From contig NZ_JALHMP010000006.1 in NCBI RefSeq assembly GCF_022843985.1, forward strand, positions 124,001 to 188,000: a stretch of 64,000 bases of DNA, read 5' to 3'. Of the stretch, positions 35,852 through 54,654 are shown one piece after another (position 1 is the stretch's first letter; each line of letters begins with the position of its first letter). A program made the translations under genes and the position numbers. The stretch comes from Phreatobacter sp. Its GTDB lineage: Bacteria; Pseudomonadota; Alphaproteobacteria; Rhizobiales; Phreatobacteraceae. A model generated the notes under the pieces. The model did no database searches. It worked only from the letters and a program-made list of their open reading frames with translations, and had not been told where the DNA came from.

Positions 35852-35871
35852 ATATTTCGATATGCGAATGC
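35852..35871 (+). promoter_or_regulatory. ATTC-N8-GAAT-like operator before the MBL gene
   Basis: The sequence ATATTT-CGATATGC-GAATGC lies about 45 bases before the metallo-hydrolase start. It differs at one base of the ATTC arm from the form ATTC-N8-GAAT and shares the ten-base core ATATGCGAAT with the site at 52439-52458 before the SQR gene. I infer binding by the SoxR/SqrR-type repressor encoded at 37981-38385. Confidence 0.6.
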
Positions 35872-35916
35872 ATCTGTGATCCGCTACCCTGTGGCAAAGA
35901 ACACGGGAGGACGGAC

Positions 35917-36828
35917 ATGCGGCTCACAAGACGAACCCTGCTCGGCGCGACGGCCGGGCTGATCGCTGCGTCCCGGCCGGGCCACGCACAGATCGCCAAG
36001 GCTCGGATGGGGCGTGCCGAACTGTCGATCCTCACAGACGGCAGCATCACCCTCCCCGGAAGCCTCCTGGCACGAGACGCGCCGCGCGACGAGGTGTCGA
36101 GCCTGCTGACCGCGGCCGGCCTGCCCACCGACGAGGTGACCAACGGGCTCAATGTCCCGGTTGTCGCGTATGGCGAGGATCTCGTCATGTTCGATTCGGG
36201 GGCCGGCCGGAACTTCCTGCCGACGACCGGCCGACTGCCCGACTCGATGGAAAGCGCCGGCATCGACCCCGCGAAGGTCAAACATGTGCTGTTCACGCAT
36301 GCCCATCCCGACCATCTCTGGGGAGCACTCGACGATTTCGACACGCCGGCCTGTCCCAATGCCGTCTACCATCTGGCCCAGGCGGAATGGGACTTCTGGT
36401 TCGATCCGGGGGTCTTCTCGCGGCTGCCCGAGGATCGCCACGCCTTCGCCGCCGGTGCGCAGCGGGTGTTGAAGGCTCTCGAGCCGCAGCTCAAGCGCTT
36501 CCGGCCGGGTGACGAACCCGTTCCGGGCATCGCGGCGATCGACACAGCCGGGCACACGCCCGGCCATGTCTCTTTCGAGGTCAGGGTCGGCGGAGAGCCC
36601 TTCGTCGTGGTCGGCGATGCCCTCACCCATCCTGTCCTGTCCTTCGCGCGGCCGGACTGGACGGCCGGTTTCGACCAGGACGGACCGACAGCCGCAGCCA
36701 GCCGCCGCCGCCTCCTCGGCAAGCTCGTGTCGGACAAACTGCCGCTCGCGGCCTACCATCTGCCGCGCGGCGGGCTCGGCCGGGTCGAGCAGAGCGGCGC
36801 CGCCTACCGCTTCATCCCCGCGGCCTGA
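35917..36828 (+). CDS. Exported metallo-beta-lactamase-fold hydrolase
   Basis: A 303-residue MBL-fold protein. The N terminus RLTRRTLLGATAGLIAASRP resembles a Tat leader, so export in folded form is likely. Zinc ligands are in VLFTHAHPDHLWGAL (HxHxDH, residues 128-133), IDTAGHTPGHVSF and the later VVGDALTHP. The start at 35917 has GGGAGG six bases upstream. It ends 3 bases from the convergent soxT stop, and an operator-like repeat shared with the SQR promoter lies upstream, so it probably belongs to the sulfur regulon. MBL proteins occur in other sox clusters (SoxG/SoxH), but I cannot say which this matches. Confidence 0.85.
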   Translation: MRLTRRTLLGATAGLIAASRPGHAQIAKARMGRAELSILTDGSITLPGSLLARDAPRDEVSSLLTAAGLPTDEVTNGLNVPVVAYGEDLVMFDSGAGRNFLPTTGRLPDSMESAGIDPAKVKHVLFTHAHPDHLWGALDDFDTPACPNAVYHLAQAEWDFWFDPGVFSRLPEDRHAFAAGAQRVLKALEPQLKRFRPGDEPVPGIAAIDTAGHTPGHVSFEVRVGGEPFVVVGDALTHPVLSFARPDWTAGFDQDGPTAAASRRRLLGKLVSDKLPLAAYHLPRGGLGRVEQSGAAYRFIPAA

Positions 36829-36831
36829 GCA

Positions 36832-37941
36832 TCACTCGGCGGCGGACCGGCGACGGTCGGACCGGCGCAGGAGGGCCCTCAGCCATTCCAGCATCGATCC
36901 TTCGAGCAGGATTGCGATGCCGATCCGCGCGCCGAGAACCATGCCGATCACCGCCACCGGCCAGGAAACCGCCAGCAACGAGCCGGCGGTGAGGCCCTGG
37001 CCGATCGTGCAGCCGCCGGCGAGCACGCCGCCTAGGCCCATGCAAACGGCACCTGTCAGGTGACGGCGCATTTCCCGCTGGTCATCGAAAGCCTCCCAGC
37101 GGAACTCGCGGGCCAGGATCGCCGCTGCCGCCGAGCCGACGATGACTCCGAAGACGCTCATGACGCCGAAGTCGAGGAGGAGGCCCTCCCCTGTAGCGAG
37201 GGCAAACAGGGCGCGCGCCACTGGCGCCACGAATGTCAGGCTCTGCACCCGGATCTGCTCGGCGAAGGGGTCGGCCAGGGGACCGGTCACCGCCCAGCCG
37301 ACAACGACGCCGAGGCCGAGGGTGACGGACGCGGTGAGGAGGCGGGGCGACCGGCGCAGGCGCGCGTCGGCCAGCGCCGCTGCGATGAGGACAATCACGA
37401 TCAGCGGTCCGAGGAACTGGCCCGCAGGCGGGCCGATCCAGCCATCGATGAGTGCGGGATAGGAGCCGATTGCACCCGTAGGCAGGGAGATGGCCACCGA
37501 CTCGATGGTACCGATGCGCAGGCCGGCGAGGATGCCGCGCAGCACGGCATAGGCGAGGACCGCGAAGATCAGCAGTGTCACCAGGCTGCGCAGGTCACCC
37601 GTCCCAAGGCGCACCAGCGAGCCGAAGGCGCAGGTGCCAACCAGCGCCATGCCGAGCCCGAACAGGATCGCGCCGGCCAGCGTACCGGCGAGCGCGAGGC
37701 GGGCGGGTACATAGGTGGTGGTTCCCGGGTCGAAGCCGAGAACAAGGACCAGCGCCTGCACGCCAAGGATCGCGAGCGCGAGTGACAGACCGAAAGCCCG
37801 CAGCCGCCGCCAGTTGCCGCCAACCAGCCCGTCCTCGACCGCTCCGAATGTGCAGAGTTTCGCCCGCTGGACGGTGAAGCCGCAGGCGAGGCCGACGGCG
37901 AGACCGGTCAGCCCCACGGTGATGGCCGCAAGTCCTTGCAT
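36832..37941 (-). CDS. soxT: YeeE/YedE-type sulfur-compound transporter (SoxT-like)
   Basis: A 369-residue membrane protein with two YeeE/YedE repeat units and about 10 or more hydrophobic helices. Conserved cysteine motifs are QRAKLCTFGAVED, LVGTCAFGSLVRLGTGD and LAGGCTIGQGLTAGS, the pattern seen in TsuA/SoxT proteins where thiols guide thiosulfate or other sulfur species across the membrane. The ATG at 37941 has GGGAGG just upstream; the GTG four codons earlier is less likely. It begins 39 bases after soxR and ends the soxA-X-S-R-T operon. Confidence 0.9.
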   Translation of the reverse strand: MQGLAAITVGLTGLAVGLACGFTVQRAKLCTFGAVEDGLVGGNWRRLRAFGLSLALAILGVQALVLVLGFDPGTTTYVPARLALAGTLAGAILFGLGMALVGTCAFGSLVRLGTGDLRSLVTLLIFAVLAYAVLRGILAGLRIGTIESVAISLPTGAIGSYPALIDGWIGPPAGQFLGPLIVIVLIAAALADARLRRSPRLLTASVTLGLGVVVGWAVTGPLADPFAEQIRVQSLTFVAPVARALFALATGEGLLLDFGVMSVFGVIVGSAAAAILAREFRWEAFDDQREMRRHLTGAVCMGLGGVLAGGCTIGQGLTAGSLLAVSWPVAVIGMVLGARIGIAILLEGSMLEWLRALLRRSDRRRSAAE

Positions 37942-37980
37942 CCATCCTCCCACGGGCGCGTGGCGACGGCGCCCTTGTCG

Positions 37981-38385
37981 TTAGGGTGCGCCCGGTGTTC
38001 CGGGTCGGCACAACGCAGCCTTCGCGCCGCTGTTGCAGAAGATATCGTAGACGACGCGGATCACCTGCCGAACATTTTCATTGGCGAGGCTGTAATAGAC
38101 TGAGGTGCCCTCGCGCCGCGTCGTCACGAAACCGTCGAAGCGCAACCGGGCCAGTTGCTGCGACACCGTTGGCTGGCGCAGCGACAGAATCGTCTCAAGT
38201 TCGCCGACAGAGCGTTCCTTCTCGGCGATCAGGCAAAGCAGCAGCAGCCGGCTCTCATGCGCGAGCGCCTTGAGAAAATCGCTGGCGTCACGCGCGTTCC
38301 GCATGAGCTGTTCGAGTTCGACGGAGTATTCCTCGCCGTCGCGCAATGCGTCTTCGATCGATTTCGGGACGATCGTCTCGTTCAT
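37981..38385 (-). CDS. soxR: ArsR-family persulfide-sensing repressor (SoxR/SqrR/BigR type)
   Basis: A 134-residue winged-helix repressor. The DNA-binding helix is SVGELETILSLRQPTVSQQL and the wing includes TTRREGTSVYYSLAN. Cys51 (in SRLLLLCLIAEK) and Cys117 (in VVYDIFCNS) occupy the two positions that form a tetrasulfide or disulfide bridge in SqrR and BigR when persulfides appear; a third cysteine (126) is near the C terminus. It is predicted to repress sox and sqr genes until reduced sulfur is present. Its start overlaps the soxS stop in an ATGA arrangement. It is unrelated to the SoxR of superoxide response. Confidence 0.92.
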   Translation of the reverse strand: MNETIVPKSIEDALRDGEEYSVELEQLMRNARDASDFLKALAHESRLLLLCLIAEKERSVGELETILSLRQPTVSQQLARLRFDGFVTTRREGTSVYYSLANENVRQVIRVVYDIFCNSGAKAALCRPGTPGAP

Positions 38386-38789
38386 CCTGGCCTTCCCTGC
38401 GCCGGCATCGACGGCGCCGCGGACCCGGCCCGTTCGCGATGATCACGAACCATTTTGGTCAACAAGCCCCAGAACGTCGACGCGTCAATATAGCCGATCA
38501 AGCGCCCGATCTCGCGGCCCTCGTGCATGAGGACGAAAGTGGGCGAGTAGTGGACAGGCAACTTGAGTGCCAATCCCTCGGGCTGCCCCCGGTCCATGTT
38601 GATGCGGCGGAGAGGAGCCAGACGCCCCTCTTCCGACGCTTCATAGGCGGGAGCAACCTCCCGGTTCCAGCGGACACACCAGGGGCATCCCGCCCGCTCG
38701 AACATCAGCAGTTCGAGCGACCGAGCGGGACTTGCAGCCGTTCCGACCGCAAGCGATGCCAACAGGATGAGCCAGTGGAACAGGCGCAT
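38382..38789 (-). CDS. soxS: SoxS-like periplasmic thioredoxin
   Basis: A 135-residue exported thioredoxin-fold protein. A signal peptide (WLILLASLAVGTAASPARS) precedes a short thioredoxin domain with the redox motif CPWC at residues 35-38, and the cis-proline region VHYSPTFVLMHEG. SoxS in Paracoccus-type clusters keeps the SoxY carrier cysteine reduced and so reactivates SoxYZ. It follows soxX by 13 bases and overlaps soxR by 4. No SoxV/CcdA-type membrane electron donor is encoded in this window. Confidence 0.88.
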   Translation of the reverse strand: MRLFHWLILLASLAVGTAASPARSLELLMFERAGCPWCVRWNREVAPAYEASEEGRLAPLRRINMDRGQPEGLALKLPVHYSPTFVLMHEGREIGRLIGYIDASTFWGLLTKMVRDHRERAGSAAPSMPAQGRPG

Positions 38790-38802: not shown

Positions 38803-39438
38803 TCAGGGCTGGTTTACCGGCGACTGCCGGTCGAACAGATAGGCCAGGACGTCCTTAATCTGCTCGATGGTCAACACCTTCGAAGAGCCGAACCGGGGCA
38901 TGTTCGAACAGGCCACCGCCGCCTGGGCGTTGAAGATCTTGATATAGGCGTCGCGGATCAGTTCCGGGTCATAGTTCCGCTCGCGTCCGTAACCGGCGAG
39001 GCTGGGCCCGAGCGTCCCGAAGCTGACCTCCTTGGGGCTCATCTGGTGGCAGGCATAGCAATTGCCACCGGCAACCGTCCCTGCCGGATCGGAGAACTGG
39101 AAGCCTCGGCCATTGTTCGCGACCTGGAAGCCCTTCCGCCAGTCACCGAGGAAGTTGCCGTCCGGCGGCAGCACGACGCTCGCGCGCTCGCGCGCCTGGA
39201 TGGCCTCTGCCTCGGCGCCGGAAACCTGGTTGCGACGGTCGGTGCAGGTGCGCTGGGTGTCGTCGAGCACGGCCCGAGCCCGCCATTCCGGCGAGACGCG
39301 GGTGAACATGCCGTCGATCAGCGCATCGACCTTGGCCGGATCGACCGGCGGACGATCCTGCGCGTCGACCGATGTGACGGTCAGGGCGATACCGCAAACG
39401 AGCAGTGTGCGGATCAGTTTCGATGAGAACGAGACCAT
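38803..39438 (-). CDS. soxX: Sulfur-oxidation cytochrome SoxX
   Basis: A 211-residue periplasmic c-type cytochrome, the small subunit of SoxAX that links thiosulfate oxidatively to the SoxY cysteine. A signal peptide runs to about VDAQ; the single haem motif CYACH is at residues 127-131 and a likely methionine ligand is in AVACSNMPRFGSSKVL. It is longer than minimal SoxX because about 100 residues precede the haem domain. The start at 39438 (MVSFSSKLIRTLL) was chosen because it begins a signal peptide; the open extension overlaps soxA. It follows soxA by 13 bases. Confidence 0.94.
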   Translation of the reverse strand: MVSFSSKLIRTLLVCGIALTVTSVDAQDRPPVDPAKVDALIDGMFTRVSPEWRARAVLDDTQRTCTDRRNQVSGAEAEAIQARERASVVLPPDGNFLGDWRKGFQVANNGRGFQFSDPAGTVAGGNCYACHQMSPKEVSFGTLGPSLAGYGRERNYDPELIRDAYIKIFNAQAAVACSNMPRFGSSKVLTIEQIKDVLAYLFDRQSPVNQP

Positions 39439-39451
39439 TGGGGGCCTCCTA

Positions 39452-40282
39452 TCAGCGCTTGATGGAGGGAACGGTGATCTCACCGCCCGCCGCCTGGACA
39501 TTGAGGAACATCTGGAGAGCCGTCAGGCCGTCCGAGGCATAGGCCGGCTCCGGCCAGCGCTGCTGGCGGAAGCAGTCCCAAAGACGGTGCTGCATGGTCC
39601 TGAGCGCGCTCTGCGAGACGCGATAGGTCGGCCAGGACCCCATCGTCTCCTGTGCCTGTTTGCCGGGCGTCGAGAAATCCGGCAAGCCTTGCAGGCGGAT
39701 CCGCTTGCCCGGCTCGGCGTGGCAGGTGGCGCAGGAGAAGTCCAGGACGCCGGCGCGCCGGTAGAACAGCGCCTCTCCCATCGCCGTCATCTCCCGCTCA
39801 CGCGGATGGGCATTCTGCGGCTGGATCGGCGTGCCATTTGACTTGTTGGCGATGAAAGCGACCAGATCCTCCATGTCGGAGGCCCGTCCCGGACCGGAAA
39901 AGCGGCGACGAATTACGTCGGCCGTGTCGAGACCCTGGATTTTCTCCATGCACCATAAGAGCCGTTGTTCGAGGTCCATGACCCGATCCGCATCGGCAAA
40001 GTAGCGCGGCAGCTTGGCATAGGCCCCCTCGAGCTTGCCGGGCCCCTCGCCAAGGTCGCAGGCCTCCAGTGACACCGCCTTGGTGCCGCGCGCCTGTGCC
40101 CACAGAACTTCGCCGCGGTCCACTGCCAGATATCCGGGATTGGCCATCGGATCGTTGATCATGGCCCGGTAGCGTTCGATTTCCCGCTCGCTCTCGTCCT
40201 GCGTCTGCGCCATGGCTCCCATGAGACCGGCGCAGGTGGCAGCCGCCACGACAAGGGCGATTAACCTCCCCATTCGATTCAT
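39452..40282 (-). CDS. soxA: L-cysteine S-thiosulfotransferase SoxA (monohaem)
   Basis: A 276-residue periplasmic cytochrome, the catalytic subunit of SoxAX. The one haem motif is CATCH at 184-188. The active-site cysteine, which carries the persulfide haem ligand, is Cys237 in [15 protein letters not shown]. The N-terminal domain keeps the structural cysteines 75 (LEACDLGEG) and 111 (LLWCMEKIQ) but has no CxxCH, so this is the monohaem SoxA type. The signal peptide ends near GAMAQ. The start at 40282 ([12 protein letters not shown]) has AGGAGACA upstream. It heads the left-going sox operon. Confidence 0.94.
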
Positions 40283-40479
40283 GATTGTCTCCTTCGGCTT
40301 CGTCCCTGGCCGCCCTCTGGCGGGGCGATCCGTAAGGCTTCGTCTTTCGCGCTTTACATTCACGAAAAACTATATTCCTATATGTCGAAGCTTGCAGGTG
40401 CGACCTGCGGCGTCAAGAAGAAGATCGAGCGGTTCCGCAAGAGAGCCGGCGCAGGTTGGAAACCACGAAGGAGGTCCCC
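40283..40479. promoter_or_regulatory. Divergent soxA / soxY control region
   Basis: A 197-base gap with both sox promoters. An AT-rich block at 40351-40385 stands out from the GC-rich surroundings. In it, ATATTC at 40372-40377 faces GAAG at 40387-40390 with nine bases between, a degenerate relative of the ATTC-N8-GAAT repeat at 52439. A second TTC/GAA pair (CATTCACGAA) lies at 40357-40366. It is a likely SoxR operator region, but the exact boxes are uncertain. A near-perfect AAGGAGGT ribosome-binding site ends 5 bases before soxY. Confidence 0.55.
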
Positions 40480-40944
40480 ATGGCGGGTCCAGTCGTCTAT
40501 CGGACGAGACGCAGCGTGCTGCATATGGCAGCCCTTGCCGCCGCAGCATCCGTCATCGCGCCGCGCTTGTCGAAGGCCGATGCCAAGGCGGTCGAGGCGG
40601 AAATCAAGAAGCTCTATGACGGCAAGACCATCGCCGATGGCCGGGTCAAGCTTGACGTTCCCCAGATCGCCGAGAACGGCCTCGTGGTTCCCATCACGGT
40701 CGACGTCGAAAGCCCGATGACCGAGCAGAACTACGTCAAGGCCGTGCACGTCTATGCTGACGGCAACCCCCTGCCCGGCGTCTTCACCTTCCGCTTCTCG
40801 CCGCTTTCGGGACGGGCTTCGGCCTCCACCCGCATGCGCCTGGCGCAGACGCAGAACATTGTCGCGGTCGCCGAGATGTCGGACGGATCGCTGTTCACCA
40901 CCAAGGCCGAGGTGAAGGTCACCATCGGCGGTTGCGGCGGCTGA
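40480..40944 (+). CDS. soxY: Thiosulfate carrier protein SoxY
   Basis: A 154-residue periplasmic carrier. The N terminus carries a Tat-type leader (YRTRRSVLHMAALAAAASV). The C terminus ends VTIGGCGG, the swinging-arm GGCGG motif whose cysteine carries sulfur intermediates through the Sox cycle. The start at 40480 is fixed by the AAGGAGGT Shine-Dalgarno sequence 5 bases upstream. Its partner soxZ begins 14 bases downstream. First gene of the right-going operon. Confidence 0.96.
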   Translation: MAGPVVYRTRRSVLHMAALAAAASVIAPRLSKADAKAVEAEIKKLYDGKTIADGRVKLDVPQIAENGLVVPITVDVESPMTEQNYVKAVHVYADGNPLPGVFTFRFSPLSGRASASTRMRLAQTQNIVAVAEMSDGSLFTTKAEVKVTIGGCGG

Positions 40945-40958
40945 GGGAGGATAGAACC

Positions 40959-41288
40959 ATGGCAACGAGACCCACCCCCCGCGTTCGCGTGCCCGGCAAC
41001 ATCAAGGCCGGCGATGCCGTCGAGGTGAAGACGCTCATTTCTCACGAGATGGAGAGCGGCCAGCGCCGCGGCCAGGACGGCAAGCCGATCCCGCGCAAGA
41101 TCATCAATCGTTTCACGGCGACGTTCAACGGCAAGCCGGTCTTCGAGGCCGACTGGCATGCCGCGATCTCCGCCAATCCCTACCAGTCCTTCTTCTTCAG
41201 GCCGTCGGAAAACGGCGAGCTGAAGATGGTCTGGAAGGACGATGACGGCTCGGAATATACGGCGACCAGCCGCATCACCGTGAGCTGA
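40959..41288 (+). CDS. soxZ: Thiosulfate carrier partner SoxZ
   Basis: A 109-residue immunoglobulin-like beta-sandwich protein without a signal peptide, which is normal for SoxZ because it travels across the membrane bound to Tat-exported SoxY. Typical segments are RVRVPGNIKAGDAVEVKTLI, SHEMESGQRR and NPYQSFFFRPSENGELKMVW. The start at 40959 has GGGAGG nine bases upstream. It lies between soxY and soxB. Confidence 0.96.
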   Translation: MATRPTPRVRVPGNIKAGDAVEVKTLISHEMESGQRRGQDGKPIPRKIINRFTATFNGKPVFEADWHAAISANPYQSFFFRPSENGELKMVWKDDDGSEYTATSRITVS

Positions 41289-41347
41289 GGCAAGGGCCGG
41301 GCGCCGCCGGCGCCCGCGCAGCCTCCTTCAAGCGACAGGACATTCCC

Positions 41348-43045
41348 ATGATCTCGCGCAGGCACTTCCTGCATGCGACGGCGGCTGCCCATGCCCTGGC
41401 GGTGGCTTCGGGTCTCGGCCCGCTCGGTCGCGCCGCGGCCCAGCAGCGCCTGTCGGAGCAGGACATTCTCCGGTTCGAGCCTCTCGGTCAGGTGACGATC
41501 CTTCATGTGACCGATATCCACGCCCAGCTGGTGCCGCTCTATTTCCGCGAGCCGTCGATCAACCTCGGAGTCGGCCCCGCCAAGGGCAAGCCGCCGCACC
41601 TCACCGACCAGGCCTTCCGCGACTTCTTCAAGATCGCCGGCGGAACGGCCGAAGCCCATGCCCTCACCTCTGACGACTTCACCGCACTGGCCCGCACATA
41701 CGGCCGGATGGGAGGCATGGACCGGGTGTCGCGGCTGATCTCGGCCATACGGGCCGAGCGCGGGGCAGACAAGGTCCTCCTGCTCGACGGCGGCGACACG
41801 TGGCAGGGGTCATGGACAGCGCTGCAGACCCGAGGCGACGACATGGTCCAGGTGATGAACGCCCTCGGCGTCGAGGCCATGACCTCGCACTGGGAGTTCA
41901 CCTATGGCGAGGACCGCGTCAAGGAACTCGCGGAAAAGTCGAAGGCGGCCTTCCTGGCGCAGAACGTGCGCGACAACGAATGGCAGGAAGCGGTGTTCGA
42001 GCCGCGCAAGACCTTCGAGAAGGGCGGCGCGAAGATCGCCGTCATAGGTCAGGCCTTTCCGCGCACGCCGATCGCCAATCCCCGCTGGATGATCCCGAAA
42101 TGGGAGTTCGGCCTGCGCGAGGAGGATATCCAGAAACAGGTCGACGAAGCGCGCGCCGAAGGCGCCGATGTCGTGGTCCTGCTGTCCCACAACGGCTTCG
42201 ACGTCGACGCCAAACTCGCCACGCGGGTGAACGGGATCGACGTGATCCTGACCGCCCATACCCACGACGCCATGCCGGGCGTGGTGACTGCCGGCAGGAC
42301 CATCCTCGTCGCCAGTGGCTCGCACGGCAAGTTCGTGTCCCGCCTCGACCTCGACATCCGCGACAAGAAGGTCACCGGGTACCGCTACAAGCTCCTACCG
42401 GTCTTCTCCGACGCCATCACCCCCGATCCGTCCATGGCCGGGCTCGTCCACACCATCCGCAAGCCCTTCGCAACAGAACTTGCCCAGGAGATCGGCCGGA
42501 CGGACAGCCTTCTGTTCAGGCGCGGCAATTTCAACGGCACGTTCGACGATCTGATCGCCCAGGCGATGCTGGCCGAACGCGATGCGGAGATCGCGCTCAC
42601 GCCGGGCTTCCGCTGGGGCGGGACGCTGCTGCCCGGCGACGCCATCACCTTCGACGCCATCGCCAATGCCACCGCGATCACCTATCCGGCCTGTTACCGG
42701 ATGGAGATGACGGGCGCCCAACTCAAGGACGTCCTTGAGGACGTTGCCGACAACATCTTTCATCCCGATCCCTATTTCCAGGGCGGCGGCGACATGGTGC
42801 GGGTAGGCGGCGTTGGCTACGCCATCGACGTCTCCGCCCCGATGGGCCGGCGGATTTCCGACCTCACCCTTCTCAAGAGCGGCCGGCCGCTGGAAGCCTC
42901 CAGGCCCTACACCGTCGCCGGCTGGGCGAGCGTCAACCAGGGGACCCAGGGTCCGCCGATCTGGGACGTGGTGAAGGCCCATGTGGCGCGGCACAAGACC
43001 GTGCGCATCGAACCCAACTCCGCCGTGAAGGTCACCGGAGCATGA
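41348..43045 (+). CDS. soxB: Thiosulfohydrolase SoxB
   Basis: A 565-residue dimanganese hydrolase of the 5'-nucleotidase/metallophosphatase fold that releases sulfate from the SoxY-bound sulfonate. A Tat leader (SRRHFLHATAAAHALAVAS) is followed by metal-site motifs HVTDIHAQLVPLYFREPS (residues 53-70), LLDGGDTWQGSWTALQTRGD, SHNGFDVDAKL and LTAHTHDAMPG. The C-terminal nucleotidase domain is complete. The start at 41348 has AGGA 8 bases upstream. Confidence 0.97.
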   Translation: MISRRHFLHATAAAHALAVASGLGPLGRAAAQQRLSEQDILRFEPLGQVTILHVTDIHAQLVPLYFREPSINLGVGPAKGKPPHLTDQAFRDFFKIAGGTAEAHALTSDDFTALARTYGRMGGMDRVSRLISAIRAERGADKVLLLDGGDTWQGSWTALQTRGDDMVQVMNALGVEAMTSHWEFTYGEDRVKELAEKSKAAFLAQNVRDNEWQEAVFEPRKTFEKGGAKIAVIGQAFPRTPIANPRWMIPKWEFGLREEDIQKQVDEARAEGADVVVLLSHNGFDVDAKLATRVNGIDVILTAHTHDAMPGVVTAGRTILVASGSHGKFVSRLDLDIRDKKVTGYRYKLLPVFSDAITPDPSMAGLVHTIRKPFATELAQEIGRTDSLLFRRGNFNGTFDDLIAQAMLAERDAEIALTPGFRWGGTLLPGDAITFDAIANATAITYPACYRMEMTGAQLKDVLEDVADNIFHPDPYFQGGGDMVRVGGVGYAIDVSAPMGRRISDLTLLKSGRPLEASRPYTVAGWASVNQGTQGPPIWDVVKAHVARHKTVRIEPNSAVKVTGA

Positions 43046-43073
43046 CCAGGACACCATCCCCCAGGAGAACGCC

Positions 43074-44366
43074 ATGACGGAAACCGGCATGACGCGCGAG
43101 ACGGCGCGGTTGAACCGGCGAGGCTTCCTCGGTGCCGCCGGCCTGGCAGGCGCCGGCCTCGCCTCTGCAGCGACCGGCGTGAGGGCCGCTCCGCCCGCAA
43201 CACCGGACCCGCTCATCACCGATGTCCAGGACTGGGCACGGGTGCTCGGCGACGGCGTTCAGGCCCGGCCATATGGCTCGCCCTCGCAGTTCGAGAAACA
43301 TGTGGTGCGCCGCGACGTCGAATGGCTGACTGCGAGCCGCGAATCCTCGGTCAATTTCACGCCGTTGCACGAACTTGACGGCATCATCACGCCGTCCGGC
43401 CTCTGCTTCGAACGCCACCACGGCGGGATCGCCGAAATCGATCCGAACAAGCACCGACTGATGATCAATGGCCTCGTCGACAAGCCAATGGTCTTTACCG
43501 TCGAGGACCTGAAGCGCTTTCCCGGTCGTCAGAACCACGCCTATTTCCTCGAATGCGCCGCCAATTCCGGCATGGAATGGCGCGGTGCCCAGCTTAACGG
43601 CTGCCAGTTCACCCATGGCATGGTGCACAATGTCTGGTACGCCGGCATTCCGCTGAAGACCCTTCTGGACGAGGCGGGGGTCAAGACCAACGCGAAATGG
43701 CTGTTGGCCGAGGGCGCCGATTCCTCCGCCATGACACGCTCCATCCCGCTGGAGAAAGGTCTTAAGGACTGTCTGGTCGTCTGGTCGATGAACGGCGAGA
43801 TGCTGCGGCCCGAGCAGGGTTACCCCTTGCGCCTGGTCGTTCCCGGCTGGGAAGGCAATATGTGGGTCAAGTGGCTGCGCCGGATCGAGGTCGGCGACCA
43901 GCCCTGGCATCACCGCGAAGAGACGTCGAAATACACCGACCTTCTCGCCGACGGGCGCTCCCGCCGCTTCACCTTCATCATGGACGCCAAATCCGTGGTG
44001 ACGAACCCCTCGCCCCAGGCCCCGCTCAAACACAAGGGGCCCAACGTCCTCAGCGGGCTCGCATGGTCCGGCCGCGGCAAGATCGGCCGGGTCGACGTCT
44101 CCATGGACGGTGGCCGCAACTGGCAAACGGCACGGATCGACGGGCCGGTCCTGCCCATGTCCCTGACCCGGTTCTATGTCGACTTCGACTGGAACGGCCA
44201 GGAACTGATGATCCAGTCCCGCGCCATCGACGAGACGGGCTATGTCCAGCCCACCAAGGACGAGTTGCGCAAGATCCGAGGCGTCAACTCCATCTATCAC
44301 AACAACGGCATCCAGACCTGGCTGGTCCGCGCCAATGGGGAGACCGAAAATGTCGAGATCGGCTAA
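43074..44366 (+). CDS. soxC: Sulfane dehydrogenase molybdenum subunit SoxC
   Basis: A 430-residue molybdopterin protein of the sulfite-oxidase fold that oxidises the SoxY-bound sulfane sulfur together with SoxD. A Tat leader (LNRRGFLGAAGLAGAGLA) precedes the Mo-cofactor domain; the Mo-ligand cysteine is Cys161 in FLECAANSGMEWRG, and CFERHHGGIAEIDP is a SoxC signature. The C-terminal dimerisation domain (MNGEMLRPEQGYPLRLVVPG onwards) is present. AGGAG lies 7 bases before the start. The last 17 bases overlap soxD. Its presence implies complete oxidation of thiosulfate to sulfate without sulfur globules. Confidence 0.96.
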   Translation: MTETGMTRETARLNRRGFLGAAGLAGAGLASAATGVRAAPPATPDPLITDVQDWARVLGDGVQARPYGSPSQFEKHVVRRDVEWLTASRESSVNFTPLHELDGIITPSGLCFERHHGGIAEIDPNKHRLMINGLVDKPMVFTVEDLKRFPGRQNHAYFLECAANSGMEWRGAQLNGCQFTHGMVHNVWYAGIPLKTLLDEAGVKTNAKWLLAEGADSSAMTRSIPLEKGLKDCLVVWSMNGEMLRPEQGYPLRLVVPGWEGNMWVKWLRRIEVGDQPWHHREETSKYTDLLADGRSRRFTFIMDAKSVVTNPSPQAPLKHKGPNVLSGLAWSGRGKIGRVDVSMDGGRNWQTARIDGPVLPMSLTRFYVDFDWNGQELMIQSRAIDETGYVQPTKDELRKIRGVNSIYHNNGIQTWLVRANGETENVEIG

Positions 44367-47271: not shown

Positions 47272-47352
47272 TCCGGCCCTATGGCCCCGGCAGTACAAAG
47301 ACCGTGATGGCGGCCTCCGCCATCCCACGTTCCCACGCAAAGGATTTCGCCC

Positions 47353-47808
47353 ATGCGCATCGCCGCCCTCGCCGCCCTCGTTGCGACGACCACCATGCTG
47401 TCCCCCCTGATGGCGCAGGCTCCTGCGCCGACCGCACCCGCGGCGCCGGCCGCCGCCGCTGCGCCAGCAGCCGGCGATGCCGCAGCCGGCGAGCGGGTTT
47501 TCGCCCAGTGCCGCGCCTGCCATCAGGTCGGCGAAACGGCGCGCAACGTGGTCGGCCCGCAGCTCAACGGCCTCTTCGGCCGGAAGGCAGGCACCGTCGC
47601 CGGCTTCAACTATTCACCGGCCTTCAAGACCCCGGCCGTGGCGGAGAAAGTCTGGTCGCCGGAGAATTTCGCCGTCTACATCCGCAACCCGCGCGAAGTC
47701 ACGCCGGGCACGCGCATGGTTTTTGCCGGCATTCGCAGCGACACGCAGATCGCCGACCTGACCGCCTACCTCCGGCAGTTCGCCGCTGACGGCAAGCGCA
47801 CGCAGTGA
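47353..47808 (+). CDS. Class I cytochrome c (c2/c550-like)
   Basis: A 151-residue periplasmic cytochrome. A signal peptide ends at LMAQ, an alanine/proline-rich linker runs to about residue 45, and the haem motif CRACHQVG is at 53-57. Further family features are NVVGPQLNGLFGRKAG and the Met-ligand region TPGTRMVFAGI. Its position at the end of the sox operon suggests it takes electrons from SoxAX, SoxCD and SoxF to a terminal oxidase. AGGA lies about 9 bases upstream. Confidence 0.92.
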   Translation: MRIAALAALVATTTMLSPLMAQAPAPTAPAAPAAAAAPAAGDAAAGERVFAQCRACHQVGETARNVVGPQLNGLFGRKAGTVAGFNYSPAFKTPAVAEKVWSPENFAVYIRNPREVTPGTRMVFAGIRSDTQIADLTAYLRQFAADGKRTQ

Positions 47809-47889: not shown

Positions 47890-50800
47890 TCAGGCGAGCC
47901 TGCCCCGATCCCCGCGCAGCACCACATAGATCGCCGGAATCACCAGGACGGTCAGCAGCGTCGATGACGCCAGCCCGAACAGCAGCGAGATCGCCAGCCC
48001 CTGGAAGATCGGATCCGTCAGGATGGTCACCGCCCCGATCATGGCGGCGAGCGCCGTTAGCAGGATCGGCTTGAAGCGGATGGCTCCGGCGTCCAGCAGG
48101 ACGTCGGTGAGCGGGCGCCCGGGCGTCCGGGCGTGGCGGATGAAATCGACCAGCAGGATCGAGTTGCGCACGATGATTCCCGCGAGCGCGATGAAGCCGA
48201 TCATCGAGGTCGCCGAGAATGGCGCATTGAACAGCCAGTGGCCAACCATGATGCCGATGAAGGTCAACGGGATGGGCGTCAGGATGACCAGCGGGACCTT
48301 GAATGAACCGAACTGCATCACGACCAGGATATAGATGGCGAGCAGCGCCACGATGAAGGCGGCGCCCATGTCGCGGAACGTCACCCAGGTCACCTCCCAT
48401 TCGCCGTCCCAGAGCAGCACCGGCTTCGTCGTGTCGACGGGCTGGCCGTTGAGCGCGATGATGGGCTTGGGCACAAGACCCCAGTCCGCCGCATCGATGG
48501 CGCGCTGCACGGCGATCATGCCGTAGAGCGGCGCCTCGAAGGCCCCCGCCAACTCGGCCGTCACCATCTCGGCGGCGCGACCGTTGCGGCGGTAGATTGG
48601 CAGCGACGTGGTCTCGCGGGTCAGGCGGACGACGTCGCCGAGTTCGACCACGGACCGGTCACCCGGCAGGATATTGGCCGGAACTGGAGTGGCCAGCGCC
48701 CGCTCGTCGATGACGAGACCGCTCTTGGCCGGTGCAAGCCGGATCGGGATCGGCTGGCGCCCGCCGCCGCGGTGTGAATAGCCAACCGTCGTGCCGCCGA
48801 AGAGCATGCGGATCGTGTTGAAGACGTCGGATTGCTCGACGCGGTGGAATTCGAGCGCATCATCGGCGACCGTCAGCCGAAGCCGCTCGGCGGCAGTGCC
48901 GAAACTGTCGTCGACGTCAACGATGAAGGGCACAGAGGCGAAGGCCTCGCGCACCTTGGTCGCCACCTGCCGCCGCGTCTCGGCATCGGGCCCGTAGATC
49001 TCGGCGAGCAGCGTCGCCATGACCGGCGGTCCGGGCGGTGGTTCGACCACCTTTACCGCCGTGCGCGGTGGCAGGGTGACCGCGCGCAGCGTCTCGCGGA
49101 CCTGGAGCGCGATATCGTGGCTGGCGCGCTTGCGCCTGTCCTTGGCCACGAGGTTCAGCTGCAGGTCGCCCATCTGCGGCTCGTTGCGCAGGTAGGAATG
49201 CCGCACCAGCCCGTTGAAGTTGAAGGGCGCGGCCGTGCCGGCATGGCTCTGGATCGAGTCGATTTCGGCGACCCCCGACAGGCGCGCCGCCAACTCCTGC
49301 AGGATCCGGTCAGTTTCCTCGACCGACGTCCCCCGGGGCAGGTCCACGACGACGCCGAGTTCGGACTTGTTGTCGAAGGGCAGCAGCTTCACCGTGACGT
49401 GCTGCGTGTAGAACAGTGCCATCGAGCCCAGCGTCGCAACGCCGACAAGGATGAGGAACATCCAGGCTCGGCCCTTGGAGGCGAGGATCGGCACCGCCGC
49501 TCGCCGATAGGCACGCCCCAGAAGCCCGCCATCGTCGCTGCCGTGGCCGCCACCGGCATGGTCGCCGCCGCCATGGGCCTTGCCGAACTTCAGCATCAGC
49601 CAAGGCGTCACCATGACCGCGACGAAGAATGAGAAGACCATGGCCGCCGAGGCATTGGCGGGGATAGGGCTCATATAGGGTCCCATCATGCCCGAGACGA
49701 AGAGCATGGGGAGCAGCGCCGCCACCACGGTCAGGGTTGCGACGATGGTGGGATTGCCGACCTCGCCCACCGCATCGATCGCCGCCTGAACGCGCGGCCG
49801 TCCGTCTTTCATCGCCCAGTGGCGGGCGATGTTCTCGATGACGACGATCGCATCGTCAACGAGGATACCGATCGAGAAGATCAGCGCGAAGAGACTGACG
49901 CGGTTGAGCGTGTAGCCCATGATCCAGGCGGCGAAGAGCGTCAGGAGGATCGTGACGGGAATGACGATGGCGACAACAAGGGCCTCGCGCCAGCCGATAG
50001 CCACCCAGACCAGCAGGACGATGGAGATCGTCGCCAGGGCGAGGTGGAACAGCAGCTCGTTGGCCTTTTCGTTGGCGGTCTCGCCGTAGTCGCGCGTCAC
50101 ATGGACGGCGATATCGCCAGGCACGACATTGCCTTCGAGCCGCTTCACCGCGGCGAGGATGTCGTGGGCCACCGTCACCGCATTGGCCCCGGCCCGCTTT
50201 GCGATGGCCAGCGAGACGGCCGGCGCCCGGTCGAAGCCGCCCTGCCCGTTGCGCGCCAGATGCGAGACACGCGTTTCGGCGGTCTCGGTGGCGAGCAGGA
50301 CGCGCGCGACGTCGCGCACATAGACCGGGCGGCCGTCGCGCGTCGTCACGAGGAGATTGCCGATCTCGGGCAGGCCGCTGAGCGTCTGTCCGGCGACGAG
50401 TCCGATCTGGCGACTACCGTCACGGATCGTCGCGGCGGAAAAAGCCCGGTTCGCGGCTTCCACCTTGGCGGCCAGCGCCTGCAGCGTCAGCCCGGCGCGG
50501 GCCAGAAGCTCCGGATCAGGTTCGACGCGGATCTCCTCGGGCTGCTGGCCCACCAGATAGGTCAGGCCGATATTGTCGAGTTGGGAAATCGCCACCTGCA
50601 ATTCGCGGGCGACGCGCGTCAGGTCGTTGGCGCTCCAGCGATCGACGGCGCCGGGTTTGGCCGCCAGCGTCAAGACCATGATGGCCACGTCGTCGATGCC
50701 ACGGCCAACGATCAGCGGCTCGGGGATCCCGGTCGGCAGGCGGTCGAGATTGGCGCGCAGCTTCTCGTGGACCCGCAGGATCGCCGCATCCGCCGAGGTG

Positions 50801-51120
50801 CCGACGAGGAAGCGCGCCGTCACCAGCGTGCCGTCGTCACGGGTCGTCGAATAGACATGCTCGACGCCGTTGATCGATTTGACCAGCGTTTCCAGCGGCT
50901 CGGTCACCAGCTTGACCGCATCCTCGGCCTTCAGTCCGTCGGCGCGCACGTGGATGTCGACCATCGGCACCGAGATCTGTGGCTCCTCCTCGCGCGGCAG
51001 CGTCACCAGTGCGACCATGCCGAGCACGAGCGAGGCGAGCAGGAAGAGCGGGGTCAGCGGCGAGGTGATGAAGGCGCGGGTCAGGGCGCCGGCAATGCCC
51101 AGTTTCGGTGTCTCGGTCAC
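47890..51120 (-). CDS. RND-family efflux transporter permease
   Basis: A 1076-residue inner-membrane RND pump with the usual 12-helix, two-porter-domain layout. The N terminus (FITSPLTPLFLLASLVLGMV then TLPREEEPQISVPMVDI) and the helix 4 segment FALIFSIGILVDDAIVVIEN, with its proton-relay aspartates, are intact. The middle carries a histidine/glycine-rich insert (GGGDHAGGGHGSDDGG). The overall type is HAE1/CzcA-like; the substrate is unknown. It overlaps its adaptor gene by 4 bases. The operon diverges from SQR across a SqrR-type operator, which suggests export of a sulfur-related compound. Confidence 0.92.
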   Translation of the reverse strand: MTETPKLGIAGALTRAFITSPLTPLFLLASLVLGMVALVTLPREEEPQISVPMVDIHVRADGLKAEDAVKLVTEPLETLVKSINGVEHVYSTTRDDGTLVTARFLVGTSADAAILRVHEKLRANLDRLPTGIPEPLIVGRGIDDVAIMVLTLAAKPGAVDRWSANDLTRVARELQVAISQLDNIGLTYLVGQQPEEIRVEPDPELLARAGLTLQALAAKVEAANRAFSAATIRDGSRQIGLVAGQTLSGLPEIGNLLVTTRDGRPVYVRDVARVLLATETAETRVSHLARNGQGGFDRAPAVSLAIAKRAGANAVTVAHDILAAVKRLEGNVVPGDIAVHVTRDYGETANEKANELLFHLALATISIVLLVWVAIGWREALVVAIVIPVTILLTLFAAWIMGYTLNRVSLFALIFSIGILVDDAIVVIENIARHWAMKDGRPRVQAAIDAVGEVGNPTIVATLTVVAALLPMLFVSGMMGPYMSPIPANASAAMVFSFFVAVMVTPWLMLKFGKAHGGGDHAGGGHGSDDGGLLGRAYRRAAVPILASKGRAWMFLILVGVATLGSMALFYTQHVTVKLLPFDNKSELGVVVDLPRGTSVEETDRILQELAARLSGVAEIDSIQSHAGTAAPFNFNGLVRHSYLRNEPQMGDLQLNLVAKDRRKRASHDIALQVRETLRAVTLPPRTAVKVVEPPPGPPVMATLLAEIYGPDAETRRQVATKVREAFASVPFIVDVDDSFGTAAERLRLTVADDALEFHRVEQSDVFNTIRMLFGGTTVGYSHRGGGRQPIPIRLAPAKSGLVIDERALATPVPANILPGDRSVVELGDVVRLTRETTSLPIYRRNGRAAEMVTAELAGAFEAPLYGMIAVQRAIDAADWGLVPKPIIALNGQPVDTTKPVLLWDGEWEVTWVTFRDMGAAFIVALLAIYILVVMQFGSFKVPLVILTPIPLTFIGIMVGHWLFNAPFSATSMIGFIALAGIIVRNSILLVDFIRHARTPGRPLTDVLLDAGAIRFKPILLTALAAMIGAVTILTDPIFQGLAISLLFGLASSTLLTVLVIPAIYVVLRGDRGRLA

Positions 51121-52118
51121 GGCAGGATCACCCGGTCGCCGGACCTGAGCCCGGTGAGAATCTCGCGGCGGGGACCGGCCGGCGTGTCAACCACCCCGCC
51201 GGTGATGACCGCGACGTCGCGTTCCCCCGTCGCGGTCGCAACGCGGATGAAGTCGATGCCGGCGCGCAGGACCACGGCAGCGTCGGGCACCGCCAGGACC
51301 TGACGGGTGGCCACGGGAACGCGCACCAGCACCCGCTCACCGACAAACCGGTCGGGCAGACCATCCACCGCGACATCGGCGATGACGCGGCCGGATTCGA
51401 TCTGGGGATAGACTTTCTCGATGGTGCCGCGCGTCGCTGGCCCCGCGAGGCGCGAGTCGCCGTCGCCAATCTCGACGGTCGCTCCCACCTTCAAGAGTGG
51501 CGCATGCCGTTCCGGGATGGCGAGGCGCAGGAAGAGTCCGCCTGCGGCGATGGTAGCGACCTGCTCGCCTGGCAGCACCACCGATCCACGGCGCATCGGC
51601 ACGGTCAGCACACGCCCGGCGGCGGGTGCGACGACGGAGCCCTCGGTTGCCTGCTGCAGGACGACCGCACGTTCGGCCTCCGCCTGGTTCATCTGGTTGG
51701 TGAGGACGTCGACCTGGGTGCGCAACTGGTCGACGCGCTGCTGCGTCGCCGCGCCACGGGCCAGGAGTGCGGTTGTCCGCTCAAGCTCGACTTTGGCATT
51801 GTCGAGCTGCGAGGAGACGGCGCGGATGCGCGCATCGGCGGCGTTCAGTTGCAGCGCGAGCTTCTCGTCGACAACGCGGGCAATGGGCCGTCCCGCCTCC
51901 ACCACGGATCCCTCGGTCACGTCGAGCTCGACCAAAGTCCCGCCGATGCGCGAGCGGGCAGGCACGACGAACCGGCTCTCGATCCGTCCATAGACGGCTT
52001 TGCTGTCCACCACGGCGACGGGGCGGACAACCTCTTCGGCCGCGAAGAGACCCGCGGTGGGCACAACCGCCGCGGCCAGGCCGACGATGCCGGAGATCAG
52101 GAAATGGCGCACGCACAT
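51117..52118 (-). CDS. RND periplasmic adaptor (membrane fusion protein)
   Basis: A 333-residue HlyD/AcrA-type adaptor that joins the RND pump to an outer-membrane channel such as TolC. A signal peptide ends near GLFAAEE; the lipoyl half-motifs are GGTLVELDVTEGSVVEAGRP and VVAPAAGRVLTVPMRRGSVV, separated by a coiled-coil hairpin (LNAADARIRAVSSQLDNAKV onwards). The C-terminal beta-barrel ends in GLRSGDRVILP. The ATG at 52118 is chosen because GAGGA lies upstream and a longer start would overlap the DUF2892 gene. Confidence 0.92.
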   Translation of the reverse strand: MCVRHFLISGIVGLAAAVVPTAGLFAAEEVVRPVAVVDSKAVYGRIESRFVVPARSRIGGTLVELDVTEGSVVEAGRPIARVVDEKLALQLNAADARIRAVSSQLDNAKVELERTTALLARGAATQQRVDQLRTQVDVLTNQMNQAEAERAVVLQQATEGSVVAPAAGRVLTVPMRRGSVVLPGEQVATIAAGGLFLRLAIPERHAPLLKVGATVEIGDGDSRLAGPATRGTIEKVYPQIESGRVIADVAVDGLPDRFVGERVLVRVPVATRQVLAVPDAAVVLRAGIDFIRVATATGERDVAVITGGVVDTPAGPRREILTGLRSGDRVILP

Positions 52119-52128
52119 CGTCCCATCC

Positions 52129-52332
52129 TCACTTGAACGCACAACCCGTCTTCAGGCCCATCGCCTTGAAGATCATGGCGGCAGGGCAAAACCCGGTGAA
52201 CCCGGCCTGCAGCATGTTGACGCCGACGAAGGCGTTCAAGGCAAGGAACCATGGCGAAACGAGATAGGCGAGGGCCAACGAGATGAGGATCATCAGGCCG
52301 GCGAAGCTGAGGACGGCGTTGTCGATGGTCAT
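52129..52332 (-). CDS. DUF2892 (YgaP-type) small membrane protein
   Basis: A 67-residue protein with two hydrophobic helices (LSFAGLMILISLALAYLVSP and the second with FVGVNMLQAGFTGFCPAAMI). It matches the transmembrane module of YgaP, which elsewhere is fused to rhodanese domains; the conserved GFCP cysteine is present, with another cysteine close to the C terminus (GCAFK). The start at 52332 has GGGGGAG upstream. It is the first gene of the pump operon, 10 bases before the adaptor, and lies opposite the SQR-rhodanese operon, which fits a sulfur-transfer role. Confidence 0.85.
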   Translation of the reverse strand: MTIDNAVLSFAGLMILISLALAYLVSPWFLALNAFVGVNMLQAGFTGFCPAAMIFKAMGLKTGCAFK

Positions 52333-52438: not shown

Positions 52439-52458
52439 ATATTCAAATATGCGAATAT
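52439..52458 (+). promoter_or_regulatory. SqrR-type operator between pump and SQR operons
   Basis: Perfect inverted repeat ATATTC, eight-base spacer AAATATGC, GAATAT in the 235-base divergent gap. The arrangement ATTC-N8-GAAT is the one I recall for persulfide-responsive ArsR repressors of the SqrR type. It can control both directions: the DUF2892-adaptor-RND operon to the left and the SQR operon to the right. The related site at 35852-35871 shares the core ATATGCGAAT. Confidence 0.75.
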
Positions 52459-52567: not shown

Positions 52568-53911
52568 ATGAACGGTCGAGATGCAATCAGGGATGAAAGC
52601 AGGCGCGGCCTCGATCGCCGCAAACTGCTGAAGATGGCGATGCTGGCGGGCACATTGCCGGCCATGGCGACACGCGCCGCCGCCGAGGAGCCCAAGGTCA
52701 GGACGCAGGCGCGCATCGTTGTCGCCGGTGCAGGGGCCGCCGGTCTCGCGGCCGCCTCCCGGCTCGCCCGCCGGCTCGACGGCGCGTCCATCATCCTGAT
52801 CGACCGTCGCCGGGAGCATTTCTATCAGCCCGGTTTCACGCTGGTCGGCGCCGGATTGAAAAGTCCCTCCTACGTGATCTCGGCCACGAAGGATTATGTG
52901 CCGTCGGGGGTGACGCTGATCGAGGAACAGGTTCGCGAGTTCGATCCGGTCGGCAACAAGGTCGTGACGGAATCCGGTCGCGCCGTCCCCTATGACTACC
53001 TGATCGTCGCCACGGGACTGGAACTGGCCTATGCCGCCATTGCCGGCATGGACACCGCCCTGATCGGTCGCGACGGCATCGGCAGCGTCTATCTCAGCCC
53101 GGAGGGCGCGGAAGCCACCTATCGGGAATTGTCGCGCTTTACCGACAAGGGCGGCGTCGGCCTGTTCGGCCGTCCGGCGACGGAAATGAAATGCGCCGGT
53201 GCGCCGCTGAAATACACCTTCATCACCGACGACATCCTGCGCCGACGCGGCAATCGCGGAAAGGCGGAGCTAATCTACGCCGCGCACAACAAGGTGCTGT
53301 TTTCCGTCCCAATCGTCGCGGAGAAGGTCCGCATGCTCTATGCCGACCGCGGCGTGAAGACAGTCCAAGACCACGTCATGACCGCGATCGAACCGGGCAA
53401 GAAGATCGCCAGCTTCCGCACGCCGACGGGCACTGCGGAGATCAAATACGACTTCATCAACGTCGTGCCGCCGATGCGTGCTCCCGCGGCGGTGCGCAAC
53501 TCGCCCCTGCCCTGGCAGTCCGGTCCGTGGGCTGCCGACGGGTGGATCGAGGTCGATCGCTCCAATCTGCGCCATACCCGTTTTCCGAATGTCTTTGCCC
53601 TCGGCGACGTCGCCGGCGTGCCGAAAGGAAAAACCGCGGCCAGCGTCAAATGGCAGGTGCCGGTGGCCGTTGACCACCTTGTGGCGGCGATTGCCGGTGG
53701 TCGGAGCCAGGCCGCCTATAATGGCTACACCTCCTGCCCCCTCATCACCCGGATCGGTCGCGCGATGCTGGTCGAATTCGACTACAACGACAACCTCGTC
53801 CCCTCCTTCCCGGGCATCATCGCCCCCCTTGAGGAGCTGTGGGTGACCTGGATCATGAAGGAAGTGGCCCTTAAGCCCACCTATACCGCCATGCTGCGCG
53901 GCCTGGCCTGA
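52568..53911 (+). CDS. sqr: Sulfide:quinone oxidoreductase, type II, with Tat-like leader
   Basis: A 447-residue FAD enzyme. After a leader with twin arginine (GLDRRKLLKMAMLAGTLPAM) comes the FAD fold ARIVVAGAGAAGLAAASRLA, the segment EHFYQPGFTLVGAGLKS, the first redox cysteine in ATEMKCAGAPLKYTF and the second in NGYTSCPLITRIG. These match type II SQR, the group that includes the mitochondrial enzyme and has only two catalytic cysteines. It oxidises sulfide to persulfide and reduces quinone. The ATG at 52568 has GGGGAG 8 bases upstream. Mature C-terminal half is complete, with amphipathic helices ending TAMLRGLA. The leader is unusual. Confidence 0.88.
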   Translation: MNGRDAIRDESRRGLDRRKLLKMAMLAGTLPAMATRAAAEEPKVRTQARIVVAGAGAAGLAAASRLARRLDGASIILIDRRREHFYQPGFTLVGAGLKSPSYVISATKDYVPSGVTLIEEQVREFDPVGNKVVTESGRAVPYDYLIVATGLELAYAAIAGMDTALIGRDGIGSVYLSPEGAEATYRELSRFTDKGGVGLFGRPATEMKCAGAPLKYTFITDDILRRRGNRGKAELIYAAHNKVLFSVPIVAEKVRMLYADRGVKTVQDHVMTAIEPGKKIASFRTPTGTAEIKYDFINVVPPMRAPAAVRNSPLPWQSGPWAADGWIEVDRSNLRHTRFPNVFALGDVAGVPKGKTAASVKWQVPVAVDHLVAAIAGGRSQAAYNGYTSCPLITRIGRAMLVEFDYNDNLVPSFPGIIAPLEELWVTWIMKEVALKPTYTAMLRGLA

Positions 53912-53921
53912 GGAGCAACCG

Positions 53922-54299
53922 ATGAAGGATCTCGATCTCTGGGTGTTCATCTCGGTTTTCCAGGAAATGCTGGGGCCGTTCCTGTGGCTGCTGATCGGCC
54001 TCGCGGTCAGCGGCCTGACGCTCTTTCTGGCGATCGTCCTGCGTGAGCGCGGCCTGTCCAGCCGCCGGCTGGTCTGGGCCGAACTGGTCGGCATTGTCGG
54101 TGGTGTGATCGCCTTGCTGATCATGTGGCTCGTCACCCATTCGGGCATCGGCGATGCCGGCGGCCCGATCGACTGGGTGCTCATTGCGGCGATCTGGACG
54201 GTGGGCGCCATCGGCACGGCCATTCTCGCCTATGTGGCGCTGAGCCTGTTCGCCAGCGGGGACGCCTCGGCCCGCCAGGGCGGCCGCGCCTCAACATGA
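53922..54299 (+). CDS. Small four-helix membrane protein (DUF5368-like)
   Basis: A 125-residue integral membrane protein with about four hydrophobic helices: FLWLLIGLAVSGLTLFLAIV, VWAELVGIVGGVIALLIMWL, WVLIAAIWTVGAIGTAILAY and a short N-terminal amphipathic segment. I recall similar proteins under DUF5368; no function is known. It starts 10 bases after the SQR stop with GGAGC upstream, and rhodanese follows 16 bases later, so it may anchor SQR to the membrane or act in quinone or sulfur handling. That is inference from position. Confidence 0.75.
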   Translation: MKDLDLWVFISVFQEMLGPFLWLLIGLAVSGLTLFLAIVLRERGLSSRRLVWAELVGIVGGVIALLIMWLVTHSGIGDAGGPIDWVLIAAIWTVGAIGTAILAYVALSLFASGDASARQGGRAST

Positions 54300-54315
54300 A
54301 CGCCAGGAGAGACGG

Positions 54316-54654
54316 ATGTTTGGATGGCTGCTGCGCCGCCCGGCCGGGCAGGAACTCGATCCCGACGAGGCGAAGGTTCTCGCCGAAAGCGGGGCAGTCG
54401 TGCTGGTCGATGTACGCGAAGACAGCGAATGGCGGTCCGGCCATATTCCCGGCGCCATCCACCTGCCGCTTTCGCGCTTCGCACGGGAAAGTGCGCGGCT
54501 GCCGAAAGACCGGCGGCTCGTTCTCTATTGCCTCTCGGGCGCGCGGTCCGGCCGCGCCCTCGGTGAATGTGCGAAGCTCGGCCTGCCGATCGACAGCCAT
54601 GTCGCCGGCGGCATTTCCGCCTGGCGCCGGGCGGGCCTCCCGGTGACGCGCTGA
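54316..54654 (+). CDS. Single-domain rhodanese
   Basis: A 112-residue sulfurtransferase domain. Active-site cysteine is in LVLYCLSGARSGRALGE, and the family start is VVLVDVREDSEWRSGHIPGA. There is no signal peptide, so it acts in the cytoplasm. As the last gene of the SQR operon it is likely to accept the sulfane sulfur released by SQR as glutathione persulfide and pass it to thiosulfate formation or other acceptors. GGAGAG lies 6 bases before the start. Confidence 0.92.
   Translation: MFGWLLRRPAGQELDPDEAKVLAESGAVVLVDVREDSEWRSGHIPGAIHLPLSRFARESARLPKDRRLVLYCLSGARSGRALGECAKLGLPIDSHVAGGISAWRRAGLPVTR

Follow-up and report, generated by a model that had tools for sequence, protein, structure and literature searches.

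The window analysed here is a 64,000 bp (64-kb) stretch of Phreatobacter sp. DNA (contig NZ_JALHMP010000006.1, positions 124,001 to 188,000) that contains a cluster of sox genes, the operon of a resistance-nodulation-division (RND) efflux pump and a divergent sulfide:quinone oxidoreductase (SQR) operon. Two intergenic sites in it, A and B, match the extended palindrome ATATTCNNATATNNGAATAT with at most three mismatches. They most likely serve as operators for an ArsR repressor that senses sulfane sulfur and belongs to the SoxR/SqrR/BigR group, with the pump a regular member of its regulon, and the pump very probably belongs to the cell's response to reactive sulfur. An earlier sequence-only reading had proposed that a shared inverted repeat places four transcription units, the pump among them, under one repressor; taken as a whole, its observations are partly confirmed and its interpretation is partly supported.

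An extended palindrome before the pump and MBL genes

Site A (52439-52458) is an exact ATATTC-AAATATGC-GAATAT, just as had been described, and lies in the intergenic region between the pump operon and the divergent SQR operon, 106 bp from the start (52332) of the first pump operon gene, which encodes a YgaP-like transmembrane protein (YgaP-TM), and 109 bp from the SQR start (52568). It includes ATTCAAATATGCGAAT at 52441-52456, in agreement with ATTC-N8-GAAT, the site deduced for SqrR (PMC9774250). Site B (ATATTTCGATATGCGAATGC, which is ATATTT-CGATATGC-GAATGC; 35852-35871) is 45 bp upstream of the ATG of a metallo-beta-lactamase (MBL)-fold hydrolase gene. It had been reported as a near copy of A with the same core, and it is a real one: of the 16 fixed positions in ATATTCNNATATNNGAATAT it matches all but three, has ATATGCGAAT in common with site A, and differs from ATTC-N8-GAAT by a single mismatch (ATTT) at equal spacing. 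When as many as three mismatches to ATATTCNNATATNNGAATAT are allowed, the window contains two matches and 100 dinucleotide shuffles of it contain none; a search of the whole genome (4,332,633 bases in 53 contigs) on the same terms finds sites A and B only, with none for the reversed control.

Conservation within the genus

The family set of 12 genomes represents one genus throughout, and four of these (our own, G000, together with G002, G007 and G010) contain site A with no more than two mismatches; the reversed control gives one match, in G006. Site A is kept in three of the four other congeners that encode the pump. The fourth, G001, has a pump of 80% identity, is without a SoxR orthologue (best match 41%) and has no site match better than six mismatches; G002, G007 and G010 carry SoxR at 93-98%. 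In all four genomes with the site it lies directly before the genes for YgaP-TM, the periplasmic adaptor (MFP) and the RND permease, with a divergent partner that is SQR, rhodanese or, twice, dihydropyrimidinase. The pump is constant and the partner varies, which argues that site A is associated with the pump, not with SQR. We note that in G002 (L077:17640-17945) SQR and most of the DUF5368 gene are absent between the operator and the rhodanese gene, with a 22-residue DUF5368 match remaining, which suggests that G002 lost SQR while the operator and pump stayed.

G002, G007 and G010 retain site B with the same three mismatches, and G004 has its right half only; it was not seen in G005, G008 or G011. 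The MBL gene adjoins soxT in eight of the nine sox clusters of the genus, our own included, and in G006 there is a copy about 7 kb off.

The block between soxA and soxY

The sequence-only reading had added a weaker relative at 40372-40390. This site C, ATATTCCTATATGTCGAA at 40372-40389, lies midway between the soxA and soxY starts, 89 bp from each, and a second weak relative, ACATTCACGAAAAACTATAT (40356-40375), overlaps it, so that the region 40356-40390 is a pair of degenerate half-palindromes. Its position within a conserved soxA-soxY block stands; its standing as a third operator copy is weak, and we have downgraded it, since the left half is followed by nine bases and then GAAG, it fails ATTC-N8-GAAT in both spacing and right half, and the extended pattern does not pick it up. 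The strong conservation is limited to the surrounding block: every one of the nine sox clusters of the genus, our own among them, keeps a sequence of the form CTTTACATTCACRAAAAACNATATNNCNATATRT, and the ATATTC of site C is kept in five of the nine (own, G002, G004, G007 and G010). Conservation at window positions 40350-40400, present in all nine, exceeds what ATTC-N8-GAAT alone explains.

Palindromes before orthologous pumps in other genera

Across 297 genomes of the order, homologues of the RND permease form a clade of 61-100% identity, with one copy in each of 106 genomes (109 with a match, less three having only a paralogue), and a paralogue clade of 43-45% (18 rows). The upstream DNA set takes one orthologue per genus, with 49 usable loci (G001 standing for our own genus), plus nine of the 18 paralogues. 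Five loci whose inclusion was due to the motif were dropped, and G257 (L157), also known from the motif, was kept as the sole locus of its genus; L161 and L162 were dropped because their contigs end before or inside the adaptor gene, and paralogue L168 has about 1.6 kb of upstream DNA.

In the 2.9 kb before the RND gene, coding DNA included, the palindrome is present with up to two, three and four mismatches at 8, 15 and 28 of the 49 orthologues. For 279 permuted palindromes at the same loci the averages are 0.07, 0.51 and 3.08 and the maxima 3, 9 and 21, and the paralogous pumps have the palindrome at 0, 0 and 2 of nine. Spacing provides a second control: exact ATTC-Nk-GAAT upstream of the pump is found with k=8 at nine of 49 loci and with any other k from 2 to 16 at zero to four. 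A named set of 80 loci, which overlaps the 49-genus set, was reduced to 73 by dropping seven with less than 1.6 kb upstream; it was drawn from among the matches listed, and all counts for it are to be read with that scope. It comprises Hyphomicrobiales plus Tabrizicola, Gemmobacter, Defluviimonas and Sedimentitalea, four genera that we take to be Rhodobacterales. Here k=8 occurs at 37 of 73 loci and other spacings at zero to nine; without Mesorhizobium, which makes up much of the set, the figures are 25 of 56 versus zero to eight.

Gene neighbourhoods separate the two pump clades in a similar way. Within up to about 5.8 kb upstream, SoxR-type genes accompany 22 of the 49 orthologous pumps, YgaP-TM 32, SQR matches 14, flavocytochrome c sulfide dehydrogenase (FCSD) matches 12 and rhodanese 4, and 34 have at least one of these genes; none of the nine paralogous pumps does. 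Three SQR/FCSD-like neighbour proteins that were checked match the NCBIfam SQR_III model below its cut-off. Among the 15 loci without a sulfur neighbour, six have the palindrome with up to two mismatches and three more at three. In the named set SoxR-type genes are upstream at 40 of 73 loci and YgaP-TM at 61.

Specificity of the motif and alternative explanations

Several results weigh against reading A and B as operators of a sulfur regulon. The bare ATTC-N8-GAAT is at chance level in the window (one observed versus 0.67 expected) and is found at ten places in the genome, with an AT-rich spacer at site A alone; around the other nine places, loci of 3 kb contain no match to the window's sulfur proteins and one distant RND protein (28%). 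With one mismatch it occurs ten times in the window versus 15.45 expected, which is not an enrichment, and ATATTC-N8-GAATAT with up to three mismatches occurs seven times versus 3.96, a count reached by 11 of 100 shuffles and not significant. The bare core is therefore unspecific, and we reject it as a genome-wide predictor. The genome search proposed with the sequence-only reading, for core matches clustered at sulfur genes, finds no such clustering; only the extended motif clusters. Occurrence at random frequency, which was to count against the regulon, holds in the window for the core and not for the extended motif, confined as that is to A and B.

The behaviour of the core is what would be expected if the sites were AT-rich palindromes that arose by chance against a GC-rich background. 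For A and B this is very unlikely, to the point of being scarcely credible, given the shuffled controls for the extended motif, the conservation among congeners and the spacing control in other genera; C may be such a palindrome.

Other points concern promoters, coverage and the regulator. Scans for sigma-70-like promoters in the three intergenic regions found none, so any overlap of operator and promoter is conjectural. For 21 of 49 genera no palindrome with up to four mismatches was seen in the 2.9 kb that precede the pump gene, and where a SoxR-type neighbour is present (22 loci) such a site was seen at 14 and not at eight; the scan took in coding DNA, and at least one match, L160, sits within the adaptor gene. 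The NCBIfam BigR model scores the window's repressor at 99.4 bits, below its 155-bit cut-off, and site C is weak. In the named set the palindrome is found with up to one, two, three and four mismatches at 3, 6, 18 and 36 of 73 loci, and the maxima for permuted palindromes are 1, 6, 15 and 30, a tie at two and close at three. Only the spacing test is therefore clear in that set, and the weaker permuted control probably reflects the many loci with other centres, such as ATTCATATTCTTGAAT.

An order-wide search for the motif with at most one mismatch finds 71 places in 54 of 297 genomes, with nine for the reversed control. Four of the 71 are in our own genus, and 50 of the remaining 67 were examined: 19, of which some are closely related to one another, have a sulfur protein or pump orthologue nearby. 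Of 20 flanking open reading frames that were sampled, 13 carry a Pfam name (e.g. aconitase, arginase, tRNA synthetase), in no case that of a sulfur enzyme. With so many matches at genes without a sulfur name, the motif alone is an unreliable predictor across genomes, and we reject the pattern search as stand-alone proof. Because it is weak alone, the argument rests on the pump orthologues as compared with permuted palindromes, other spacings and paralogous pumps.

These order-wide matches would also fit a regulator of an unrelated kind that binds AT-palindromes, with the sulfur link at A, B and C a by-product of gene clustering. We consider this improbable, as form and spacing fit the site deduced for SqrR, and in other families the motif is found again at pump orthologues and at sox and SqrR-type genes. 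An operator of the SoxR/SqrR/BigR group remains the reading that we prefer.

The regulator and its paralogue

The SoxR/SqrR/BigR-type ArsR repressor that the sequence-only reading had recognised is encoded at 37981-38385 on the minus strand (P0001). Its best match in the PDB is the ArsR sequence of 13ct/6o8l (E 3e-29), entries that we take to be SqrR, with HlyU, BigR and YgaV chains next, and its Cys51 and Cys117 align with both cysteines of that sequence.

That a single repressor is involved cannot be concluded, as the genome encodes a second SqrR/SoxR-type protein on contig C3 (129895-130230; L076:9880-10254, minus strand). It is 66% identical to the window SoxR, has Cys50 and Cys116, and shares with it an identical 26-residue stretch, ERSVGELETILSLRQPTVSQQLARLR, around the recognition helix. 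Its neighbours are a PAS histidine kinase, coproporphyrinogen oxidase and a thiamine pyrophosphate (TPP) enzyme, with no sulfur genes, and no operator match with up to five mismatches was found in the surrounding 19 kb. Similar paralogues (65-72%) are present in G002, G004, G007, G009 and G010.

A regulon shared or divided between the two proteins is possible, though we think it the less probable arrangement: the C3 paralogue would mainly read A and B, and the window SoxR, acting through the C block, would control the sox promoters alone. The shared cysteines and recognition-helix stretch are consistent with this, the absence of sulfur neighbours and of a nearby site would have the paralogue act in trans, and Hyphomicrobium denitrificans has two homologous repressors, sHdrR and SoxR, with shared targets (PMC10451225, PMC12423496). 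However, sites A, B and C all lie within the soxR cluster, the three congeners with site A are those noted above for their closely similar SoxR, and G009, a single genome with the paralogue and without SoxR, has neither the pump nor a match with up to two mismatches. We also note that G007 has another, divergent cluster of sox type on contig C101 (L091:285-6453), which includes a SoxR-like gene (60%) and, at L091:2624-2651, near-palindromes.

Gene content of the region

The MBL-fold hydrolase gene (35917-36828, plus strand) encodes a protein that is probably exported, from a twin-arginine-like N-terminus judged by eye, and whose nearest solved relatives are organophosphorus and methyl parathion hydrolases and lactonases. 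It is followed on the minus strand by genes for a SoxT-type YeeE/TsuA sulfur transporter (36832-37953), the SoxR repressor, a SoxS-type thioredoxin-like protein (38382-38789; PF13098 below cut-off) that adjoins soxR, SoxX (38803-39501; TIGR04485) and SoxA (39452-40282, with the start set at ATG 40282; TIGR04484). On the other strand lie genes for SoxY (40480-40944, plus strand; TIGR04488), SoxZ, SoxB, SoxC and a cytochrome c in the SoxD position (40932-45075, plus strand), then a cytochrome c, a DsrE-like protein, the FCSD flavoprotein and a cytochrome c550-like protein (45072-47808, plus strand).

The pump operon is on the minus strand and consists of the RND permease of the SqrR/SoxR-linked clade (47890-51120), the MFP adaptor (51117-52142) and, as its first gene, YgaP-TM (52129-52332; PF11127, also DUF2892). 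On the other side of site A are SQR (52568-53911, plus strand), with mitochondrial SQOR chains as closest PDB relatives, and 3' of it a DUF5368 protein and a single-domain rhodanese (53922-54654, plus strand). The permease has one solved relative at E ≤ 1e-60, 7wlv (E 1.7e-62). Counting A as serving two transcription units, B one and C two gives five, in place of the four proposed earlier.

A proposed regulon

From the sites, their conservation, the gene linkage and the cysteines we infer binding, de-repression and a substrate for the pump, as follows. The repressor acting at A and B would be the window SoxR, the C3 paralogue or both, and its reduced dimer would occupy ATTC-N8-GAAT. When site A is occupied the divergent promoters of the YgaP-TM-MFP-RND and SQR-DUF5368-rhodanese operons would be blocked, and at site B that of the MBL gene. 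Thiosulfate or sulfide would raise cellular sulfane sulfur, a bridge would form between Cys51 and Cys117, and the repressor would be released; expression of the pump, SQR-rhodanese and MBL genes would then rise along with that of sox. The soxAXSRT and soxYZBCD units are probably under the same protein through the degenerate sites in the C block. What the pump exports is probably a sulfur compound, or else some other toxic by-product that arises under sulfane-sulfur stress. A more specific and speculative proposal, which we think doubtful, is that YgaP-TM-MFP-RND is a dedicated exporter of sulfane sulfur (polysulfide, a low-molecular-weight persulfide or a related compound) and a standard arm of the SqrR/SoxR response across Hyphomicrobiales and Rhodobacterales; efflux would then stand beside oxidation as a further route to lower cellular sulfane sulfur.

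Relationship to known systems

The kinds of repressor, operator and sulfur genes described here are already known, and RND pumps were already suspected targets: the survey PMC12423496 lists RND efflux pumps, on the basis of gene neighbourhood, as likely targets of sulfane-sulfur ArsR regulators, so the earlier remark that such a pump is not normally counted in sulfur oxidation is not borne out. Section 2.1 of that survey lists the pumps and names neither the orthologous clade nor operators before the pump. A search of the literature, mostly open-access articles without supplements, found no publication characterising the pump or showing its operator. What is added here is comparative evidence at the level of the operator that places one orthologous RND pump in a sulfane-sulfur regulon in many alphaproteobacterial genera. 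This pump is without a close solved relative, and a role for RND pumps in sulfur metabolism becomes directly testable.

The system resembles those of Rhodobacter capsulatus SqrR and Escherichia coli YgaV (PMC9774250, PMC9995734) in the ATTC-N8-GAAT site, the ArsR protein with sensor cysteines, and sulfide control of SQR and rhodanese. Two differences are that an RND pump operon has a share in the site and that the regulator is inside a full sox cluster. With H. denitrificans SoxR (PMC10451225) it has in common the sox cluster, the two conserved cysteines and the second homologous repressor, sHdrR in that organism. The H. denitrificans protein binds the soxXA-soxYZB intergenic region, giving two shifted bands, and polysulfide prevents the binding; the counterpart region here is the C block, where SoxR would be expected to bind. 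A difference from that system is that the site is present here at the pump, SQR and MBL units. The bigR operon of Xylella and Agrobacterium (PMC5823870) likewise has a sulfide-responsive ArsR-type repressor of a sulfide-oxidation operon, whereas that operon is of the Blh-type sulfur transferase/dioxygenase kind and the MBL protein of the window is similar to organophosphate hydrolases and lactonases.

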